The position numbers were made by a program, and so were the translations under genes. Source: Phototrophicus methaneseepsis (GTDB lineage: Bacteria > Chloroflexota > Anaerolineae > Aggregatilineales > Phototrophicaceae). From it: a stretch of 64,000 nucleotides of DNA. The notes under the pieces are model-generated. The model was not told the DNA's origin. It searched no databases and saw nothing but the letters and a program-made list of their open reading frames with translations. The stretch lies in the NCBI RefSeq assembly GCF_015500095.1, contig NZ_CP062983.1:4092001-4156000 (forward strand), given 5' to 3'. Of this stretch, positions 3,896-14,795 are shown piece by piece; position 1 is the first letter of the stretch; every line of letters begins with the position of its first letter.

Positions 3896-4777
3896 TTAGC
3901 CTTCAGCCAAACGATGCGCCGCCTTAAGCGTATTGCTCAGCAGCATCGTAATCGTCATTGGGCCAACGCCACCGGGAACAATGGTAATGGCACCAGCGAT
4001 ATCCTTAGCGCCTTCAAAATCGACATCACCAACCCACTGATAGCCTTTTTCAGCCGATGGGTCATCCACTTTATTGGTTCCTACGTCAATAATGACAACA
4101 CCTGGCTTGAGCCAATTTGCTTTGACGTAATTCGGCTTACCGATAGCTGCCACCAGGATATCAGCTTCACGAATATAAGAGGAGGCGTCCGGCGTACGAC
4201 TGTGACAGATCGTCACTGTTGCGTTGGCTTCGTTCAGCATCAAGGCCACTGGCAAGCCGACGATATTACTGCGTCCAAGCACGACAGCTTGCTTCCCACT
4301 GGGGTCGATACCTGCTTCTTCAATGAGAACCATACATCCGGTAGGCGTTGCTGGCGTAAAGGTTGGCGTCCGGCCTTTCATCGCCAAAGCGCCAATATTC
4401 ACCGGGTGAAAGCCATCAACATCTTTATCCAGGCTAACGGCACTTAAAACCGCCTCTTCGTCGATTTGATCTGGCATCGGGAGCTGTACGAGAATACCGT
4501 GAATTTTGGAGTCTTCATTGAACTGCTGAACAGCCGCCAATACTTCCTCCTGGGTTGCATCTTCCGGTAGTTCAATCGCGGCAGAATGAAGGCCCACTCG
4601 CTTGCACGCACGACGCTTCATCCGTACATACATCTGTGAGGCTGGGTCCGCCCCAACAAGTATTACGCCTAAACCTGGGGGATAACCATGCTTCTCTTCA
4701 AAAGCAGCCGCCTGCTGCTGAATATCATCTTGCAGTCGCCGGGCAACCACATTGCCATCAATGAGTTGAGCTGTCAT
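3896..4777 (-). CDS. folD: Bifunctional methylenetetrahydrofolate dehydrogenase/cyclohydrolase FolD
   Basis: 293 residues from the ATG at 4777, which has AGGGAG upstream; the frame stays open further upstream but the family N-terminus (MTAQLIDG) begins here. Catalytic residues Y50 and K54 lie in the YVRMKRRAC signature. The NADP-binding segment GRSNIVGLPVA and the C-terminal PGGVGPMT signature are intact. The enzyme interconverts 5,10-methylene- and 10-formyl-tetrahydrofolate in the cytoplasm, feeding purine and formyl-Met synthesis (fmt lies at 57.7 kb). It ends 54 bp upstream of the deaminase gene start and may be the first gene of that leftward group. Confidence 0.95.
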   Translation of the reverse strand: MTAQLIDGNVVARRLQDDIQQQAAAFEEKHGYPPGLGVILVGADPASQMYVRMKRRACKRVGLHSAAIELPEDATQEEVLAAVQQFNEDSKIHGILVQLPMPDQIDEEAVLSAVSLDKDVDGFHPVNIGALAMKGRTPTFTPATPTGCMVLIEEAGIDPSGKQAVVLGRSNIVGLPVALMLNEANATVTICHSRTPDASSYIREADILVAAIGKPNYVKANWLKPGVVIIDVGTNKVDDPSAEKGYQWVGDVDFEGAKDIAGAITIVPGGVGPMTITMLLSNTLKAAHRLAEG

Positions 4778-4974
4778 ATTCGTTAGACTCCCTGGTGTTC
4801 CGTTGTTGCATAAACCAATTAACTCACATGATGACACAGGATCAGCAACTACGGTATGGTGGACTGAGCTTGAAACAGGGCTAAGCTGGTTGTCAACGCA
4901 TTCATACAACTCCCTACAAGACTTAAACCCCTATTAGGAGCATTTTCAGGTAGTATAAACATCATAACGATTAG

Positions 4975-5017: not shown

Positions 5018-8000
5018 ATGGGACTTACGAAAATGAGACACAAAAAATCACAAACGAGATCGACGGTTGAGAGCGCTCAGGCAATGGTTGAATATGCCCT
5101 GATTGTCGTGCTGTTGATTCTCGCATTTGGTGTAGCATTGGCTGCAACCGGCCCTTATGTCGGCAATGTTTTCTGCGAGGTTGCTCTCAATCTGGTCGAG
5201 AATGATGCACCGAGTGACTATAGCGCCGTTTATGAGCCAGGCGAAAATGCTACAAGCGGCAAATGCGCTTATGAAAATAGAGAAACCTCTTATCTTGATG
5301 AAAATAGGATGCCAGATGCTGAAGAGTTCTGGCAAACAGTGACGGTTGTCGCCAGCTTAACAGCCGAAGATCGTTCACTGCCAACGAGCACACGGGCACC
5401 CATCACACCGACGCCACTGACTGTGGATACACCATCACCGACACCGATTACACCAACCGCTACAGAAATCCCGTCGGAAACGCCAGTGCCCTCCCCAACA
5501 GAGGAAGATCATCGGCATGTTGCCCCATGGGAAGACTCTGCAGAGAAACCCATTGACTGGCGTTTGGATGATTCTTTCTACACAGGGTCGGAAGACTGGT
5601 TCGGTATTTATTATGACAATCGGTCTATGACGGCACCTGCCAAGAGCGCCCTCTATAACAACGAGATTGACGAAGCTTTCCGCAATAAGCTGAACTTCGA
5701 TTGGGGGACAGGTGCCGCCATCGCAGACCTTTCCGACACCAATAACTGGAGTGTTTCATTCCGTAAGCCCATCTGGATTCAAGAATCTGCGACAAATGGC
5801 ACTGGGATGGTCACGCTCAGCATCGACATTCCCCGGGTTGAAGATGGTATTCGCATCTGGATCGTAGGCGAACAATTTGGTGGTGAAGTCAACGTAGAAA
5901 CAGGCAGTGCAGGTAGCTGCTCTGGACTGGGCGTTACACCAGGTGGCTTGGGAGAAGATGTTAGCACAGCAGGTGCCGGGTGGAATATTTACGACGATGC
6001 CTATTTTGGATTTAATCCCGCGACCGACCCCGCTGCAGCTGCCCCAACAGAATGTCTCCTCGTTGATCGTTGGAAACATGGTGGCGCGCCAGCCAGCCAG
6101 CTCAGTGTGAAGCGCAGTGTCCCAGCGGGCTTCTACATGCTGCAAGTTGACTATTATGATGAACAGGGTGACGCGAGCATCGCGGTCAATGTTGGCAGCA
6201 CAAGCACGCAAATCAATCCGGATGACACCACAGTCGATACCGCGGGTAATGATCTTGGTGGCGTGCCAACATGTGGTTGGTATAACCGCGAAAGCAATAA
6301 ACTGCCGAACACGCTCGACTATATGTGGGATGAATTCGAAGATGGTGCGAACCTACCCGCTGGGAGTCGCTGTTACCTTGAGCTGCGTGGTTGGGTTGAA
6401 ATCCCCGCAACCATGACCAACGTCAAATTGACGTTCTGGGACATCTGGGAGATGCAAACAGGCGTCTATGGCTGGCTCGAAATCGGCGACTACGATGCCT
6501 ATGCAGCGACCAATCCACGTGATCGCAGCGCACTAAGCTGGCAACGCGTGAACCTCCACGAAGGCATGACGTATAACTATAACTGGACGCACCACACCGT
6601 TGGGATGGATTCCTACGTTGGTAAAAAGGTCGCATTACGCTTCGTCATTGAAAACCGAAGCTCAGCAGATATCAACAGATGGTATATCGACAACATTCGT
6701 ATTGCTTCCACCCCACGTCAGACATTCTATATGTCGCAGCAGTGGGATTTGAATAACAATGCCCAGAGGAACGATTTCATCACAAGTGGGCATTGGGCTA
6801 TGACTAATGAAAACGCCTTGGGTGCTGGTATGGCCTGGCATGAAAGTCCTGGCCGCAATACCTCAGCCTTTACAGAATATCACCAACGTGATGTGACCCT
6901 GCCGCCCGATTATAACGATACGCGCATTCATAGTATCGAGTTCAACGGCGTGGTTGACGTCAATGACCCGAATGGCTTATCCGATCTAGAAGGTGATGTT
7001 GGCGATCCACTTCTTACCTTCTGGCACAAGTACGATATCGGGACACTCACACAGCTAGAGATCCAATACACAACAGACGGCCTCACAACGGATCCAAATA
7101 CATCATTCGGCGTCCAGGCTCCTGTCTGGCATACCGTGCCCGATACCGGCGTATTGGTTGCTGGGAATACAACGGGCAGCGCGAATAATCAGATGGAATT
7201 CGTTGAGATTCCATTGCAGCCAATCGTGGATGCCATTGGTTCAAGTCGTTTCCGTCTGCGGTTTGCCCTGATTATGCGCTGGGATGCATCAGAAGATAAC
7301 GGTTGGTGGATTGATGAAATCCAGTTGGAACGCGTCGGTACAGAGAAGTTCCTGCCTTATCCGTTCTTTGATAATGTCGATACAGTTGAGACTGTGCGTA
7401 ACTGGGAAGGTGACTGGGGCCGCGTCGAAGGTGGTCGCAACCCAGAAGCAGGTGCAGGCTATTCTTATACGGATTCACCCTATACCAGCTACGGCAATAA
7501 CAAGACCTACAACCTCATCACGAGTGAAACGTTCGACACGTTCATGGATTCACCACAGAATGTGCGGTCGGCAGCTTGTGAACTAGGTGGAGCTTGTGAA
7601 ACGCCTGATCCAACGCCTGTTGCACCCATGTTAGAGTTCTACTGGTGGCGCGATGTTAATCCATCTGACCACCTTTACGTCGAATGGCGACGCCGTAGTG
7701 AAGCTGATACCGCATGGCGTATTTTGTGGGCCTATAAAGCAGAAATGCGTACCAACGGCACAGGTACTGACTATGAAACTCGTATCCAACTCGATTGGGA
7801 GCGCGTTGAAGTCAATCTCAAGCCTATGATGGATATACTAAAAGCTCAGGATAATCCGGCTGATCCGCTCGACGATGATATCATCTTGCGCTTCAGCTTC
7901 AGGACGAATGGGAGCGGCACAAGAGACGGACATTACGTCGATGATATCCGCGTCAGAGAACGCAATACGAATATCTGGCGCCTATGGCCCACAGGAACAA

Positions 8001-10396
8001 CGCCAACAACTGTGAGCGGCACAGCGCTCCCCGCAGGCAGCGGCATTGTTTACTACGATGGGATTGAAGGTACTGGGAACCCTGCAAGTAATTACTGGCA
8101 CATCGGTGGCAGTTGGACAGCTATCAACTGGGATAGCAAAGGTGGCGTTACCAGCTTCCATGATAGCCCTGTAGGCCAGAGTGCCCCACCACCATTTATG
8201 GATGGGTCAAACATCACGAACTACGCAACAAAAGCAGACACCTATAACGTGCTGGAGCTAGGCACATGGATTGATTTGCGTGGTGTTGATGCAGCATCTG
8301 TACCCATGTTAAGCTTCTGGTCGCACTATGCAGTCGGCACAGATGACCGAGCCCGCGTCGAAATTTCCTTGCTGGAACAAAATCGCTATGACAATCCAGC
8401 TTCAAGTAGCTACTGTCAGGACGGTTACGCTCAGTGCTACGAAAAGAACTACGGTTGGTCTGAATGGATTGGCCTGTGGGATCGCAGTAGTCAAAAGCGC
8501 ACTTATACATGGCAATATGAACGTATTGATCTATCTGCGTATGCCAAAAATGGCAGCTCAGATGGCCAGATCATTCGTATTCGCTTCGTGCTTGATGCGC
8601 TCCGCAACAGTAATACCTGGGATGGCTGGTACATTGACGAAGTCCGTGTCCAGTACAATCAACCCCGTGTCTATGTGATCAACCGAGATAACAGCATATA
8701 CGATAGCTCACGAAATATGCGTAACTGGATTGCTGAAGGCAAATGGGGCCTTAGCACAACCTTTGGCCGTGGGCAAAGTCCAACTTCAGGCATGGGCCAG
8801 TTGATCTGGAGTTACGAATATGTGAACCTACGTAACACAAGTATTCGTACAAAATGTGAGCCAAACAGCGGCGATCATATTCAATGTGCTACACATTACT
8901 TCGACAATAACCCCTTGCCTATTACAAGTAGTTCAGGTAGCCATATCGGGCAAGAAACATCAGTCAACTATCCAGATGCAGAATTCCACCAGGATTATGC
9001 AGATCTCAGTGAAAGCTATTTGGGTGCGCGCTGGATTACGACAACAGGCCTAGTTGGTCCTTCGACAAGTGGCGGTATCATTGAACCTGGCTTGTATTTC
9101 TTCCAGACCATATCTGACGATGGCGTCCGCATGCGTTACGAAGTCGCCTCCGGCAGTTGTACACTACCCTCAACGCCGACAACCGACATGCCGCTCGCAG
9201 GCCAAACATGGAACCTGATCAACAACTGGAATGGCCATGGTGATACGACAGATACAGGTCGTGCTCAACTTGAATCTGGGTGTACCTACCGTTTTGAATT
9301 GCAATGGTTCCAGGGGACAGGTGGTAAAACAATCGTTCTATCACAGGGCACATCGGGGAACATGTCCTTTACAGACACCCCAGCCTATGGTCCCGATGAA
9401 AATCAGGATATCGCGGCGGTTCCGCGCAGTAACTCATCATTGCTTCTGAACGGTGTCCTTGACCTTACTGGTGCGGATGACCCTGTCGTTCAGTACTATA
9501 CCTATCATGAGTTGGGTGGCACGGCCTATGTGGAAGTCAGCCCTGATGGCGGTTTCACATGGACCCAGCAAGGCTTGCAAGGCGGCCCGCCACCGAGCGA
9601 TATATGGACGAGTGCGTGGACGGTTGACCTATTCAACGACAATGCCAATAGGGAAAACAAAATGCAGGCGGCCCCCTCGTATGTGGGTGTCGCAGCAGGT
9701 ACAGATGCAGGTATCCATCTGAATTTTGGTAATGACTATATCGGCAAGTTGTTCCCAGAAGTGCCCGATAACTGGGGGCAAGACTATGCCTCGATGCGCT
9801 TCACACGCACCTTTACGTTGGCCCAGGACACGACCTTCCTCTTCCAGACGAATGGGGATGATGGTCTACGATTATGGGTTGATTATGATGCAAGTGATCC
9901 AAAATGTACGGCTCTGGCAACAAGTGGCGGCCCAGACTCAGGAAGTAGCAAAACATATCCATCGCCACAATACACAGGTGACTGCCTGATCATCGATAAC
10001 TGGAAAAGACAGGGTACTAATCCATTGAGTGTTTTACGTACGATTGAGGCAGGCACGCACACATTACAGCTTGACTACTTCGAGGAGACGAGCGGGGCAT
10101 ACATAGACCTTGATGTGATTAAAACCAATAATGGCATTCCGTTCGATGCACCAACATACAGCGGAGTTAATATGCCGAACACCCCGGCAGAGATCCCATC
10201 GAATTGGATCTCTAAAGCCCATGACTTAACGATCTATGCCGGTGCAGATATGCCCTTCATCAGTTTGCGCTTCCGTCTGGATCGCATGGATGTCAAAGGT
10301 GTTGATGAAAATCGCAATCCTCAATCGCGCAATCAAAGCCCCTTCAACTTCAAAGAGAGTTGGTGGATTACCGACATCACGATTGCTGAGCCGTAA
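5018..10396 (+). CDS. Giant Flp-pilin-headed surface protein with PA14-like and MAM-like modules
   Basis: 1792 residues from the ATG at 5018 (GGGGAG 5 bp upstream; a TTG at 4982 is less likely). Residues 1-60 resemble a whole Flp/Tad pilin: a basic leader, then ESA|QAMVEYAL with Glu at +5 and Tyr at +6 of a class III prepilin site (Ala20 at -1 instead of Gly), a hydrophobic helix at 27-43, and GPYVGNVF. A Thr/Pro linker spans about 121-163. PA14-like blocks lie near 175-400, 1315-1455 and 1528-1705 (GDDGLRLWV; LQLDYFEE). MAM/immune-inhibitor-like jelly rolls end in WYIDNIRI, GWWIDEI, HYVDDIRV, GWYIDEV and WWITDIT. Probably exported and possibly built into a Tad-type pilus as a tip adhesin; no other tad gene is nearby. 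Confidence 0.75.
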   Translation: MGLTKMRHKKSQTRSTVESAQAMVEYALIVVLLILAFGVALAATGPYVGNVFCEVALNLVENDAPSDYSAVYEPGENATSGKCAYENRETSYLDENRMPDAEEFWQTVTVVASLTAEDRSLPTSTRAPITPTPLTVDTPSPTPITPTATEIPSETPVPSPTEEDHRHVAPWEDSAEKPIDWRLDDSFYTGSEDWFGIYYDNRSMTAPAKSALYNNEIDEAFRNKLNFDWGTGAAIADLSDTNNWSVSFRKPIWIQESATNGTGMVTLSIDIPRVEDGIRIWIVGEQFGGEVNVETGSAGSCSGLGVTPGGLGEDVSTAGAGWNIYDDAYFGFNPATDPAAAAPTECLLVDRWKHGGAPASQLSVKRSVPAGFYMLQVDYYDEQGDASIAVNVGSTSTQINPDDTTVDTAGNDLGGVPTCGWYNRESNKLPNTLDYMWDEFEDGANLPAGSRCYLELRGWVEIPATMTNVKLTFWDIWEMQTGVYGWLEIGDYDAYAATNPRDRSALSWQRVNLHEGMTYNYNWTHHTVGMDSYVGKKVALRFVIENRSSADINRWYIDNIRIASTPRQTFYMSQQWDLNNNAQRNDFITSGHWAMTNENALGAGMAWHESPGRNTSAFTEYHQRDVTLPPDYNDTRIHSIEFNGVVDVNDPNGLSDLEGDVGDPLLTFWHKYDIGTLTQLEIQYTTDGLTTDPNTSFGVQAPVWHTVPDTGVLVAGNTTGSANNQMEFVEIPLQPIVDAIGSSRFRLRFALIMRWDASEDNGWWIDEIQLERVGTEKFLPYPFFDNVDTVETVRNWEGDWGRVEGGRNPEAGAGYSYTDSPYTSYGNNKTYNLITSETFDTFMDSPQNVRSAACELGGACETPDPTPVAPMLEFYWWRDVNPSDHLYVEWRRRSEADTAWRILWAYKAEMRTNGTGTDYETRIQLDWERVEVNLKPMMDILKAQDNPADPLDDDIILRFSFRTNGSGTRDGHYVDDIRVRERNTNIWRLWPTGTTPTTVSGTALPAGSGIVYYDGIEGTGNPASNYWHIGGSWTAINWDSKGGVTSFHDSPVGQSAPPPFMDGSNITNYATKADTYNVLELGTWIDLRGVDAASVPMLSFWSHYAVGTDDRARVEISLLEQNRYDNPASSSYCQDGYAQCYEKNYGWSEWIGLWDRSSQKRTYTWQYERIDLSAYAKNGSSDGQIIRIRFVLDALRNSNTWDGWYIDEVRVQYNQPRVYVINRDNSIYDSSRNMRNWIAEGKWGLSTTFGRGQSPTSGMGQLIWSYEYVNLRNTSIRTKCEPNSGDHIQCATHYFDNNPLPITSSSGSHIGQETSVNYPDAEFHQDYADLSESYLGARWITTTGLVGPSTSGGIIEPGLYFFQTISDDGVRMRYEVASGSCTLPSTPTTDMPLAGQTWNLINNWNGHGDTTDTGRAQLESGCTYRFELQWFQGTGGKTIVLSQGTSGNMSFTDTPAYGPDENQDIAAVPRSNSSLLLNGVLDLTGADDPVVQYYTYHELGGTAYVEVSPDGGFTWTQQGLQGGPPPSDIWTSAWTVDLFNDNANRENKMQAAPSYVGVAAGTDAGIHLNFGNDYIGKLFPEVPDNWGQDYASMRFTRTFTLAQDTTFLFQTNGDDGLRLWVDYDASDPKCTALATSGGPDSGSSKTYPSPQYTGDCLIIDNWKRQGTNPLSVLRTIEAGTHTLQLDYFEETSGAYIDLDVIKTNNGIPFDAPTYSGVNMPNTPAEIPSNWISKAHDLTIYAGADMPFISLRFRLDRMDVKGVDENRNPQSRNQSPFNFKESWWITDITIAEP

Positions 10397-10427
10397 ACCA
10401 ACAAGGCAATTATGACATAACCAAGCG

Positions 10428-10456
10428 GACCGCCCATTCGGGCGGTCTGTTTGTTT
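10428..10456 (+). terminator. Rho-independent terminator of the giant gene
   Basis: Perfect stem GACCGCCC / GGGCGGTC with loop ATTC, followed by TGTTTGTTT, 32 bp after the stop codon. Confidence 0.85.
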
Positions 10457-10588
10457 ATTAGACAAAGCCTATTACTTCCAGTCACTTGGCTTAAGTCATT
10501 CATCATAATTTCTTAGTCTATTCTCTGGTCGATGCCGGGTCTTACTGCTAAACTGTAATCAGAAGCATAGCAAGCGATAGGATGCATC

Positions 10589-11218
10589 ATGGTGGCAGAT
10601 AAAGATGGGCGTGGGTTGCTCTTTGTCATGGTTGGCCCAGGTGGAGCCGGCAAAAACACAATCATGTCAATTGCAATCGAACGATTGGATAACCTGAGCA
10701 AGCTGATTACAGCAACGACACGTCCTATGCGCCCCGGCGAAATCAACGGTGTCAATTATCAATTTGTTGATCTGGCACAGTTCCGCGAGATGATCGACCG
10801 AGACGAACTGCTTGAGCATCAAGAAGTCACCAAAGGTAAGTTTTACGGCATTCCACGCGCCAACGTCGATACCTATCTTGATAATGGGCATGACCTAGTT
10901 GCCGATATTGAGGTGCTTGGCGCGCGTATCCTACGCCAAACCTATCCTTCTGACACCGTCATGATCTTCTTGACCGTTCCAGGCAATACAGAAGAAGAAG
11001 TCCTGACCACATTACGGGAACGCATGGAACAACGGCGGGATAACCCTACAGTAATAGAAGAACGCTTATTAAGGGCCCGCCTTCTAGAACTACCCTTCCA
11101 GGTAGAATGCGATTATGTCATCGTCAACGATGATATTGATCGCACTGCTGAAGAACTCATCACCATCATCCAACAAGAACGCATGGCTCGCCGCCATCCG
11201 TCGCAGGTGACATCATGA
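10589..11218 (+). CDS. gmk: Guanylate kinase
   Basis: 209 residues, normal for bacterial Gmk. The P-loop is GPGGAGKNT at 16-24 (K22). The GMP-binding region TTRPMRPGEINGVNY and the following EHQEVTKGKFYGIP match the family, as does DIEVLGAR for the VDIDxQGA segment. Phosphorylates GMP to GDP in the cytoplasm. AGGATG precedes the ATG. The stop codon overlaps the start of the next gene (ATGA), so the two are translationally coupled. Asn23 at the position usually Gly or Ser is slightly unusual but compatible with function. Confidence 0.95.
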   Translation: MVADKDGRGLLFVMVGPGGAGKNTIMSIAIERLDNLSKLITATTRPMRPGEINGVNYQFVDLAQFREMIDRDELLEHQEVTKGKFYGIPRANVDTYLDNGHDLVADIEVLGARILRQTYPSDTVMIFLTVPGNTEEEVLTTLRERMEQRRDNPTVIEERLLRARLLELPFQVECDYVIVNDDIDRTAEELITIIQQERMARRHPSQVTS

Positions 11219-12288
11219 ACTTACGTGATCTTCATACACAACACGGCGCCACGCTTGCACCAGATGGTATCCCTCTGCAGTACAATGACCTTGCCACAGA
11301 ATACGAGCAAGCCCATCACGCGGCTGTTCTGCTAGACCGCTCTCATGAAGGCCGTATCCACCTTACGAATATCTCACGGTTCGAGCTGCTCAATCGCATG
11401 TCTACGAATAAGCTGGTTGATATGACCGCTGGAGAAGGTCGGGCGACGCTTTTTACCAATGACCACGCACGGATTATTGATCGCATTGAGGTCTATAACT
11501 TAGCAGATACTCTGCTCGCCATAACAGAACCGGGTCAGGGTCCCAGCATAACCAACTTCATTCAGAAGCATATCTTTTACGGGGACCAGGTGCAGTTGGC
11601 AGACGTCACAACTGAGACAGCTCACTTTGCCCTTCATGGACCGCAAGCAGTCGCCATCGCGAAGCTCATAAACCCAGATATCCATGAAGACACAACTTTA
11701 GCGGCTTATCAGGCGACGTTAGGCAGCACCCCTGTTACGCTTTTGAGGCGTAAGGCCGTGGTAGGTACGCATTGGGCCGTCATCTGCGCCAAAACAGATG
11801 CAGAACAAGTTTACGTAGATTTACTCTCGCTAGGTGCGCCTCTGGGCCTGATCCCGGCTGGATCACTCACTTTTAATACCTTGCGCATCGAAGCAGGCCG
11901 CCCAGCGCGCCCAGAACTCAATACGGATTATATTCCGATGGAAGTTGGCCTTTATGACGAGATCAGCTTCACAAAGGGCTGCTACACTGGGCAGGAAATC
12001 ATCGCACGCATGGACAGCCGGGAACGCATCGCACGCGTGATGGTTCAGCTTGAACTTGATAACCTTGTGCAGGCGCCAGCCGATTTATTCCTGGATGGCC
12101 GCCTGATTGGCAAGATAACGAGCAGTGTCCAGGCACCTAACCATCATGTTTATGCATTGGGGGTCGTCAAGACGGCCGTGGCAATCCCAGGTAAGCTGCT
12201 AACGGCTGGAGAAGCAACAGCCACTATCGTTGACTACGCTGGCACGCAACCCACATTTTTAAAACCTGAGCAGAACACATCCGCTTGA
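11215..12288 (+). CDS. YgfZ/GcvT-like folate-binding protein
   Basis: 357 residues, an aminomethyltransferase-like fold. The diagnostic motif K-G-C-Y-T-G-Q-E lies at 254-261. This is the YgfZ/IBA57 signature, not GcvT. YgfZ helps maintain certain iron-sulfur enzymes in a folate-dependent way. It overlaps gmk by 4 bp. GcvT itself is a less likely identity because the KGCYxGQE motif is present and no gcv genes are nearby. Confidence 0.85.
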   Translation: MNLRDLHTQHGATLAPDGIPLQYNDLATEYEQAHHAAVLLDRSHEGRIHLTNISRFELLNRMSTNKLVDMTAGEGRATLFTNDHARIIDRIEVYNLADTLLAITEPGQGPSITNFIQKHIFYGDQVQLADVTTETAHFALHGPQAVAIAKLINPDIHEDTTLAAYQATLGSTPVTLLRRKAVVGTHWAVICAKTDAEQVYVDLLSLGAPLGLIPAGSLTFNTLRIEAGRPARPELNTDYIPMEVGLYDEISFTKGCYTGQEIIARMDSRERIARVMVQLELDNLVQAPADLFLDGRLIGKITSSVQAPNHHVYALGVVKTAVAIPGKLLTAGEATATIVDYAGTQPTFLKPEQNTSA

Positions 12289-12320
12289 ACGAGCATTTAG
12301 GAGTTGGGCTATTCTGTAAA

Positions 12321-12351
12321 CGGTGCATATCGTATTTGACGATATGCACCG
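12321..12351. promoter_or_regulatory. 12-bp-arm perfect inverted repeat
   Basis: CGGTGCATATCG and its exact complement are separated by 7 bases (TATTTGA). It lies 33 bp after the ygfZ-like gene and 27 bp before the next ATG. No T-run follows, so it is not a classic terminator; an operator or an RNA hairpin in the leader are both possible. Confidence 0.5.
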
Positions 12352-12377
12352 GAAGCACACCAGGTTGACCATTACCC

Positions 12378-13517
12378 ATGAAATGGATTACGCGCCTCAT
12401 TGCCTTTATTATCGCCTATATTGCAACAGGGCTCTTCCTGATTGCAGCAGTTGACATGGCTGTTTCCAGGGCGATGCTGAGCACGACAACCTACCGTGCA
12501 GCCTTCAATAACGATCAATTTGCGCGCAATTTGGTACCTAGCATCCTCACAGCCATGGCAGAAGGCTCTCGCAACGGGGACCTGGATGTCTGGCCTTTTG
12601 AAGCCGAAACACTAGCCGAGCGTGTGGATGCCAACACATGGGCCGCCGCAACGGAGGTCCTGGTGCCAGAAAGTTGGGTTAGCGAGCAAGTCGAACGGTT
12701 AATCAGCCTATTCGACGGTATTCTCAATGACGAGACGACCGTCCTGCAAGAAACGATTCACCTACAACTTCTTAAGCAAAATTTGGAAAGCGAGCCTGCT
12801 ATAACGGCAGCGAATCGCTTAATTGATGCACTGCCAGATTGTACCTTCGCTGAAACTGAGTTAATCCAGGCGATTGCCAACGGGGAAGAAACTCGCCTGC
12901 CACTCTGCAAGCCCACAGCAGAATTCCGTGATTATAGTGTGACCACAATTGTTCAGTGGCTTAACAATATCGGCCAGATGCTGCCCGCAACAACCAATCT
13001 GGAAGCCATTGGCATTACAGCGAACAGTATACAAGGCTTGCATCTCCTGGTAGAGATTAACTGGCAGGTTGTATCTTTGCTATTCCTGTGCCCGACTGCC
13101 CTGCTATTCCTCGTTGTGTTCCTTGTTGTGAAGTCGCTGCGCAGCTTCGGCAGGTGGACGGGAATTGTGGTGATTATGAGTGGGCTCACAATTTTAGGAG
13201 CGTTGTTCCTGCTCCAAGCCATCACCATCAACACGATGACCGACGTCTGGCAGACAAATACACCTCAGGAACGATTTTTCGCACAAATTGTGCTTTCACT
13301 CGTGAGGGCCGCTTTCTTACAGTCCAGCACCACCTTATTGCTCTTGGCCGCTATCTTCTTCGCAGTTGGCTTCATATTGCTGATGGTGGCAAGTTATGCG
13401 CCTCAAGCAATCCCGGAGCTCTTTGAAATCGAGGATAGCCACCCATCGCCAGAGGATGGAACAACCCCCAATGCCAACCGCACCAAAGCGAAGCATGATC
13501 ATATAATTGAGTCTTAG
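12378..13517 (+). CDS. Predicted multi-pass membrane protein of unknown function
   Basis: 379 residues. One N-terminal hydrophobic helix (about 5-30) is followed by an extracytoplasmic region of about 190 residues with several Cys (CTFAE, LPLCK). Three hydrophobic helices then follow around 225-250, 260-280 and 305-340, with a short charged C-terminal tail. I do not recognise the family. It lies downstream of gmk/ygfZ and convergent with the FtsB-like gene. The layout of an N-terminal anchor, outside domain and C-terminal helices recurs in Chloroflexota hypothetical proteins. Confidence 0.75.
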   Translation: MKWITRLIAFIIAYIATGLFLIAAVDMAVSRAMLSTTTYRAAFNNDQFARNLVPSILTAMAEGSRNGDLDVWPFEAETLAERVDANTWAAATEVLVPESWVSEQVERLISLFDGILNDETTVLQETIHLQLLKQNLESEPAITAANRLIDALPDCTFAETELIQAIANGEETRLPLCKPTAEFRDYSVTTIVQWLNNIGQMLPATTNLEAIGITANSIQGLHLLVEINWQVVSLLFLCPTALLFLVVFLVVKSLRSFGRWTGIVVIMSGLTILGALFLLQAITINTMTDVWQTNTPQERFFAQIVLSLVRAAFLQSSTTLLLLAAIFFAVGFILLMVASYAPQAIPELFEIEDSHPSPEDGTTPNANRTKAKHDHIIES

Positions 13518-13532
13518 CTTGGCAAATTAGCC

Positions 13533-13985
13533 TTAGGGCAAATCAGAATCGAAGAAAAGCCGCCACCAGAGCTGATAATTTTCTGGCCTGGGCAGCGTGG
13601 TTTCAGCTTCTGCGAGGTCAAATTCTTGCACTTGGCGTACCTGCACCTGGCTCGTCAGTGGGACTGGCACAACGAGAATTTCGCCTTCACGGACAAGTCG
13701 TCCCTCACTACGCGCCCACAGCGCCACATAATCATCACTCTGGGCAAAGTTGCGCTCCTGGATCAAATCAGACTGCTCAGAACGCAACTGCTCAATTTCT
13801 GCTTGGACGGAATCCTGAATATTGCGCAGGTCCCGATCTGCAAGGATACGCGTGCTGAAGTTGATCGCAAGCATCAAACCAATAGCAATAATCACAGCAA
13901 ACATCACCTGCGTGCTGCTCAACTGGCGGCTACGCTGTTTGCGTTGTGGATTTGGCTGATCTGTCGATGGGTTCTGAGTGGGCAT
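13533..13985 (-). CDS. FtsB/DivIC-like septum protein
   Basis: About 150 residues. A basic cytoplasmic N-terminus precedes one transmembrane helix (VMFAVIIAIGLMLAINF) and then a coiled coil (about 55-95, rich in E, Q and R with heptad leucines) ending in SDDYVALWARSEGRLVREGE. This architecture fits the DivIC/FtsB family of single-pass divisome proteins, and the last segment matches their conserved membrane-distal region. The start is ATG 13985; a GTG two codons upstream (13991) is possible. A promoter can be drawn on the minus strand: TTCACT, 16 bp, TATAGT (TATAGT at 14012-14017). Confidence 0.65.
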   Translation of the reverse strand: MPTQNPSTDQPNPQRKQRSRQLSSTQVMFAVIIAIGLMLAINFSTRILADRDLRNIQDSVQAEIEQLRSEQSDLIQERNFAQSDDYVALWARSEGRLVREGEILVVPVPLTSQVQVRQVQEFDLAEAETTLPRPENYQLWWRLFFDSDLP

Positions 13986-14137: not shown

Positions 14138-14795
14138 CCACCCGCATAGCGGGTGGCTTGATCCAGCCCTATAAGGGCTTGGCACTTGCTGCACCTCAAG
14201 GTGCTCTTTCACTGCGTTCAAGCCGATGCATCGATTACCTGGCTAACCCCTAAAGGGGTCGTCATGCTCTTTTGTGCTGATCCGATCCATCATTTGATCG
14301 TGTTTCTCTTGCTCACGCACGTACTTTGCGATCGTCGCTTCATTCAGTCCTACTGTGCTTACGTAGTAGCCTCGCGCCCAGAAATGCCGATTCCCGAACT
14401 TGTATTTTAGATTCGCATGGCGGTCAAAGATCATCGTGGCACTCTTGCCTTTCAGATAGCCCATGATAACCGACACGCTATATTTGGGTGGGATCGATAC
14501 TAACAGATGGATGTGATCGATTCGGGCGTTTCCCTCTATGATCTCCACGCCTTTCCACTTGCACAAATCCTTCAATATCTCCACAATACTGGCTTTGTAC
14601 TGGTTGTAGATTACTTTCCGTCGGTACTTGGGCGTGAACACGATGTGATACTTACACATCCATTTCGTGTGTGCTAGACTTTTGCTCATGGATTTCACTC
14701 CTCGTTATAGAGTTGGCGGCTTGAACACTGCCATCCTAACGGGAGTGATTTTCTTTTCCTATAAGGCTTTTCTTCTCCACCCGCATAGCGGGTGG
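14138..14795 (-). mobile_element. IS200/IS605-family insertion element (tnpA only)
   Basis: The minimal extent is set by two identical copies of the palindrome CCACCCGCATAGCGGGTGG at 14138-14156 and 14777-14795, flanking a single tnpA gene on the minus strand. Subterminal hairpins are the recognition signals of this family, which moves as single-stranded DNA and has no terminal inverted repeats or target duplication. Further small hairpins lie in the tnpA-downstream end (AGCCCTATAAGGGCT near 14165, GCACCTCAAGGTGC near 14191, CCCCTAAAGGGG near 14248). True tips are probably some tens of bases outside each hairpin. The element sits just downstream of tRNA-Leu. No tnpB is present. Confidence 0.85.
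14243..14689 (-). CDS. tnpA: IS200-type transposase TnpA (Y1 HUH)
   Basis: 148 residues, full length. H59-I-H61 in ARIDHIHLLV is the HUH metal motif, and the catalytic Tyr lies in ARGYYVSTVG (Y108/Y109). N-terminal KYHIVFTPKYRRKV is typical. ATG 14689 has AGGAG 9 bp upstream, preferred over a GTG at 14698. The gene is intact, so the element may still be active. Confidence 0.95.
   Translation of the reverse strand: MSKSLAHTKWMCKYHIVFTPKYRRKVIYNQYKASIVEILKDLCKWKGVEIIEGNARIDHIHLLVSIPPKYSVSVIMGYLKGKSATMIFDRHANLKYKFGNRHFWARGYYVSTVGLNEATIAKYVREQEKHDQMMDRISTKEHDDPFRG

Follow-up and report, generated by a model that had tools for sequence, protein, structure and literature searches.

In this work, we ask how a protein of 1792 residues can begin as a Flp pilin, and what such a protein may do. 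Flp pilins are thought of as small subunits of the pilus shaft. The gene lies in the window, here the whole stretch of 64,000 nucleotides analysed, which corresponds to G000:C1:4092001-4156000 of a single-contig genome of 5.63 Mb. One open reading frame on the forward strand, from 5018 to 10396, encodes the entire protein, and the sequence AGGGGAG is found about 8 bases 5' of the ATG at 5018; comparable G-rich sites precede the ATG of homologues. The reading frame, coordinates, length and N-terminus given in an earlier note on this DNA were all borne out. The protein is ordered as a leader, a Flp-type core (residues 21-60), a helix (101-113), a Thr/Pro linker of 54 residues and a series of PA14 and MAM/jelly-roll modules (Table 1). 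From its sequence, it appears to be a very large adhesin-like surface protein that starts as a Flp (Tad-type) pilus subunit. The joining of a pilin core to non-pilin PA14/MAM modules is that of a modular pilin; since 1792 residues do not fit the small size, about 50-80 residues, of ordinary Flp/Fap pilins (PF04964), the protein is described here as a modular Flp fusion. Residues ~16-50 are its sole membrane-spanning-like stretch, and neither a LPxTG-type sortase motif nor a second membrane segment was seen in the 1792 residues. The NCBIfam search returned no informative family, and no Rfam elements were detected near the gene at gathering scores. An IS200-like transposase (Y1_Tnp) gene is located about 4 kb downstream, at 14243-14698.

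Table 1. Features of the modular Flp fusion and of its neighbours, in window positions. Module borders are approximate; neighbour counts refer to 8 kb around the 52 homologous loci that gave any hit.
Feature	Position	Strand	Remarks
folD, divergent neighbour	3896-4909	-	within 8 kb in 48/52 loci
Predicted prepilin leader, residues 1-20	5018-5077	+	5 K/R, end ...VESA; Gly at -1 in 29/30 homologues, Ala here
Flp-type pilin core, residues 21-60	5078-5197	+	QAMVEY..., GPYVGNVF; model helices 21-43 and 45-60; invariant Q+1, E+5, Y+6, F52
Short conserved helix, residues 101-113 (FWQTVTVVA)	5318-5356	+	invariant F104 and W105
Thr/Pro/Ser-rich linker, residues 114-167	5357-5518	+	length 53-57 residues in 30/30 homologues
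MAM-like jelly roll 1 (~168-180 and 430-588), PA14 domain 1 apparently inserted	5519-6781	+	meprin MAM Z 13.2
PA14 domain 1 (~188-397)	5579-6208	+	6qdi PA14 Z 13.1, rmsd 2.2 over 126; Flo1 Z 10.9
Beta-sandwich module 2 (~635-779), MAM-like, least certain assignment	6920-7354	+	model and fold comparison
MAM-like module 3 (~780-983)	7355-7966	+	meprin beta MAM Z 13.8, rmsd 2.7 over 152
MAM/CBM-like module 4 (~1006-1216)	8033-8665	+	fold comparison
PA14 domain 2 (~1261-1449)	8798-9364	+	sugar-binding PA14 of RTX adhesin 6m8m Z 10.4; Asp-Asp 1367-1368 in 27-28/30
MAM-like module 5, first part (~1470-1515)	9425-9562	+	fold comparison
PA14 domain 3 (~1529-1704), optional	9602-10129	+	DDGLR motif (1614) aligns in 6/30 homologues
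MAM-like module 5, last part (~1713-1792, C-terminus ITDITIAEP)	10154-10393	+	fold comparison
gmk (guanylate kinase), downstream	10589-11218	+	40/52 loci
gcvT-like aminomethyltransferase, downstream	11215-12288	+	34/52 loci

The earlier note had read residues 18-60 as a Flp/Tad pilin with a class III prepilin signal, and this reading stood on both profile score and conservation. A Flp profile built from the standalone Flps of the order scored 24.3 bits for the window copy and 15.6-47.8 bits across all 30 homologues (window copy included), with matches always inside the first 75 residues; in the control, shuffled N-termini and reversed proteins reached at most 0.6 bits. The core, which reads QAMVEYALI...ATGPYVGNVF, is the most conserved stretch of the whole protein, and a chance match was rejected on the basis of the shuffles and of this conservation. 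Across the six reading frames of the window, there is a single instance of the prepilin pattern with an uncharged hydrophobic stretch behind it. A core of the TadE type was also rejected, as the TadE profile, made from only 4 sequences of the same genome, gave 2.6 bits for the window copy (1.6-10.4 over the homologues), against 24.3 for Flp. The Pfam searches proposed in the earlier note had a mixed outcome: Flp_Fap (PF04964) did not recognize the window copy but did recognize 14 of the 28 family members (E up to 0.1), and the scores of most standalone Flps in the order likewise fell under its curated cut-off; PF07811 matched four other places in the genome, the giant not among them. The pilin part of the predicted model has a pLDDT of ~57-76, that is, moderate confidence, and no PDB sequences resembling the N-terminal profile were found up to E 1. 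Around the end of the core lies a pair of cysteines, C53 and C83, possibly forming a disulfide; a similarly placed pair is seen in several homologues (L035, L041, L043).

The class III prepilin motif, namely Gly or Ala at -1, E+5 and Y+6 followed by a hydrophobic helix, is present, and the predicted cut falls between A20 and Q21, a small correction to the position first noted. Q+1, E+5 and Y+6 are invariant in all 30 N-termini, from homologues at 32-60% identity, and the E+5 pattern was found in every homologue N-terminus read, including diverged ones from other families. Since Gly occupies position -1 in 29 of the 30 full N-termini amid these invariant residues, the Ala, found in the window copy alone, is a substitution private to it, at a cleavage site that is otherwise conserved. 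This residue had been marked as a point to explain; the prepilin peptidase is reported to cut at glycine or alanine (PMC3244431), and a G/A-X4-F/E cleavage motif has been described for a Tad pilin-like protein (PMC12607857), so that either residue would be accepted.

Between pilin core and linker, the Phe-Trp of the short helix (FWxTVTxVA) is invariant in all homologues. The share of Thr, Pro and Ser in the linker varies from 42 to 70% across 30 homologues; a length that stays constant while the sequence changes suggests that the linker acts as a spacer spanning a set distance.

The PA14-like and MAM/jelly-roll-like modules first recognized by eye in the cargo were confirmed by Pfam, with PA14 at 32.5 bits (cut-off 24) and InhA-like MAM at 31.0 bits (cut-off 26.9). 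Structure prediction and fold comparison, the check suggested for them, likewise returned PA14 and MAM-like folds, of glycan-binding type, at Z 10-13. Mean pLDDT was 70.5 for the model of residues 1-640, in which PA14 domain 1 apparently interrupts a MAM-like jelly roll, and 76.1 for that of residues 615-1792, where reelin-like pairs also appear in the fold comparison. The Asp-Asp motif is retained in PA14-2 and PA14-3, and reads ED in PA14-1 of the window copy. Both marks of a sugar-binding PA14 domain are found, the fold (by Pfam, and by Z 13.1 to 6qdi) and the Asp-Asp calcium motif (DD at 1367 and 1614).

Within 8 kb of the giant gene no tad genes were found in the 52 loci, except for two loci with another kind of Flp. 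In most of these loci the giant is placed between folD on one side and gmk-gcvT on the other. FolD is also nearby in the 3 loci read from other families of the order, and Gmk in 2 of these. The address beside folD and gmk is thus ancestral and, being common to most relatives and to other families, indicates that the separation from tad genes is old. The lack of a nearby tad gene, left open in the earlier note, is accounted for by this ancestral address and by the Tad cluster and prepilin peptidase that the genome has at other sites.

A cluster at L011 holds RcpC, TadZ-like, TadA, TadB and TadC genes, along with response-regulator and histidine-kinase-like ones; one T2SSE and two T2SSF matches were obtained in the genome, and a single A24 prepilin peptidase is encoded at L015. 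The proposed search for tadABCZ and the peptidase was therefore positive, and the genome has what a Tad subunit would need, both the machinery and the processing enzyme. An ordinary membrane anchor in a genome without peptidase, the finding that would have spoken against a pilin, is not what we observe: the core is of the Flp type and the A24 peptidase is there. A short Flp of 54 residues (L014:6572-6736), sharing 44% identity over 39 residues with the core of the giant, is probably the major subunit of the Tad pilus. Two clusters, L012 and L013, encode TadE/TadG-like proteins, of which some have large tails. One of them, a TadE-type protein of 968 residues (L013:6074-8980), carries long thrombospondin-3-like repeats and has a similarity, below the NCBIfam cut-off, to myxobacterial CglD and MtsD. 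At L012, a 779-residue TadE-type protein with a Thr/Pro-rich tail (11273-13612) and a 929-residue TadG-like protein (8426-11215) adjoin reading frames resembling a tyrosine recombinase and ParA/ParB.

Homologues of about 1500-2000 residues are found throughout the family, the full-length ones examined having about 1460-1880, and the order's other families contain diverged ones; in public records they appear under Anaerolineae or Chloroflexi, in some cases under Aggregatilineales. Among the matches listed for a class-level sample, every long open frame (>1,000 residues) came from this order, and no plasmid homologues were found. Both a recent acquisition and a frameshift fusion were rejected, given the shared synteny and the full-length homologues.

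Within the family, the giant was matched in 56 of 60 genomes with T2SSF (TadB/C), a few of these matches being fragments on short contigs, and in 0 of 38 without (Fisher 5e-23); this p-value, which takes genomes as unrelated, overstates the evidence, because the 38 genomes represent few lineages, and 33 of them belong to a single genus. Within that genus, G098 has TadB/C as well as the giant. The four TadB/C genomes in which the giant was not found are G064, G093, G132 and G133. As the A24 peptidase is retained in all 38 genomes lacking TadB/C, and a Flp match in 37 of them, the giant tracks the assembly platform and not the peptidase. Genomes of genus g22 (L159, L160 and others) in which no TadB/C (T2SSF) match was obtained retain one or two standalone Flps and an A24 peptidase. 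The fixed chromosomal address across the order, together with the absence of the giant where the Tad machine is absent, indicates that it probably serves as a large adhesive component on the Tad pilus.

The earlier note had proposed a pilin core with a huge adhesive cargo, acting as a minor-pilin or pilus-tip adhesin, and this remains the best supported reading, on the grounds of Flp score, conserved motif, machinery, TadB/C co-occurrence and folds of glycan-binding type. Points that speak against it are the distance of the gene from tad genes, the Ala at -1 and the missed Pfam threshold of the window copy, the moderate pLDDT of the pilin part, the four TadB/C genomes without the giant and the few lineages behind the 38 genomes lacking TadB/C. 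We consider it likely that the giant modular Flp pilin is a minor subunit of the Tad pilus presenting a PA14/MAM adhesive head, with the tip as its most likely position. From the computed sequence features, conservation, locus, machinery, TadB/C co-occurrence and predicted folds, we infer the following course of cleavage, incorporation, tip placement and ligand binding. The A24 peptidase would remove the 20-residue leader after A20, and the platform of TadB and TadC, with TadA as its motor, all encoded elsewhere in the genome, would take up the Flp helix (21-60) as a minor subunit. The Thr/Pro linker of fixed length would keep the PA14 and MAM/jelly-roll modules, about 1,600 residues in all, at a distance from the filament, where the PA14 domains, two of them with the Asp-Asp motif, may bind glycans in a calcium-dependent manner. 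In this way the pilus would be equipped with a large head for adhesion, the tip being the most likely place.

The same modular pilin could instead be distributed along the shaft by means of a long flexible linker. Flp pilins are indeed the shaft-forming type, the linker of 53-57 residues is rich in Thr and Pro, and a position in the filament body has been allowed for modular pilins whose linker is flexible enough (PMC8179133). A cargo of some 1,600 residues would, however, crowd the adjacent subunits, and the known large pilins PilB, CpaL and KilN are modelled at the tip, so that we regard a shaft position as unlikely.

Other readings place the protein outside the filament. That the Flp-like helix is a mere membrane anchor, tethering an adhesin in the cytoplasmic membrane apart from any pilus, would agree with its being the only membrane-spanning-like segment and with a gene distant from the tad genes; a plain anchor has no need, though, for an invariant Q+1, E+5 and Y+6, a near-invariant G-1 or a Flp-like tail (GPAIGNVFSN), nor would it be expected to be missing jointly with TadB/C, and we judge this quite improbable. 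A further reading is a pilin-like priming or pseudopilus subunit which stays at the base of the Tad machine and serves secretion or sensing rather than adhesion: such a role, very improbable in our estimate, may be hinted at by the invariant FW helix at 101-113 and by CpaL, proposed as a sensor and placed at the base before assembly (as proposed for CpaJ/K/L), but the many folds of glycan-binding type and the long spacer point outwards.

A minor Tad subunit with an adhesive head has parallels in several known systems. Modular pilins are widespread, PA14 being among the grafted domains; in the survey describing them, which used the IPR012902 motif, the most extreme case has 860 residues (PMC8179133). 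PilB and PilC of Streptococcus sanguinis resemble the giant in having a pilin module, a linker and a functional module, a proposed tip position and a role in adhesion. In contrast to those modular type IV pilins, the core is here of the Flp type, the full-length homologues examined have about 1460-1880 residues and the machinery of the genome is Tad. CpaL/TadG (PMC12607857) is likewise a large Tad minor-pilin-like protein with an adhesive or sensory module and a G/A-X4-F/E cleavage motif. It combines, however, a pilin-like globular module with a vWA domain in 626 residues, whereas the giant has a helical Flp core and PA14/MAM modules, no vWA being found, and its genome encodes TadE/G-like proteins separately. 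With KilN and the Kil Tips of Myxococcus (PMC12075869), a Tad pilus is again adapted through large minor pilins, whose exposed domains vary; KilL, KilM and KilN are homologous to TadE/F/G, while the Flp-type minor pilins of Myxococcus, KilK and KilO, are small adapters without cargo. Finally, the PA14 fold and the Asp-Asp of PA14-2 and PA14-3 are shared with PA14 adhesins such as the Flo1/Flo5 flocculins, the RTX adhesin 6m8m and the Clostridium clariflavum PA14 pair 6qdi, from which the giant differs in that its PA14 domains are carried by a pilin core. For Chloroflexota, both tad genes and structures resembling pili have been reported (PMC7332563, PMC13319060). Searches of open-licence papers returned no Flp pilin in Chloroflexi, no Flp pilus with a PA14 domain and no Flp-based giant; modular pilins and Tad tip proteins are already known, and a Flp-based one of such size was not found in the literature searched.

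The giant is accompanied by other Flp fusions in relatives. One, of 798 residues (L166:948-3344), carries malectin, cadherin/Ig and laminin-G domains, another, of 463 residues (L167:667-2058), thrombospondin-3 and malectin domains, and shorter ones occur at L168 and L169; L162 is a diverged giant, also with bacterial Ig and cadherin-like modules. An ancient giant at a fixed address and these other fusions might make Flp pilins a general carrier of large grafted modules in this Chloroflexota order, whose Tad pili would then have, in addition to the TadE/F/G tip complex, Flp-based adhesins that can replace one another, a proposal for and against which we see about equal grounds.

Tad pili are widespread, and the way in which they recognize surfaces, only now being worked out, is ascribed to tip proteins of the TadE/F/G type. 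If our reading is true, a conserved Flp subunit with an adhesin more than 20 times its own size would represent a second way to functionalise Tad pili. The giant would offer a concrete test case for the passage of a large cargo through the platform on nothing but a Flp helix, and gives a hint of the way in which adhesion to surfaces, or between cells, may come about in these Chloroflexota.
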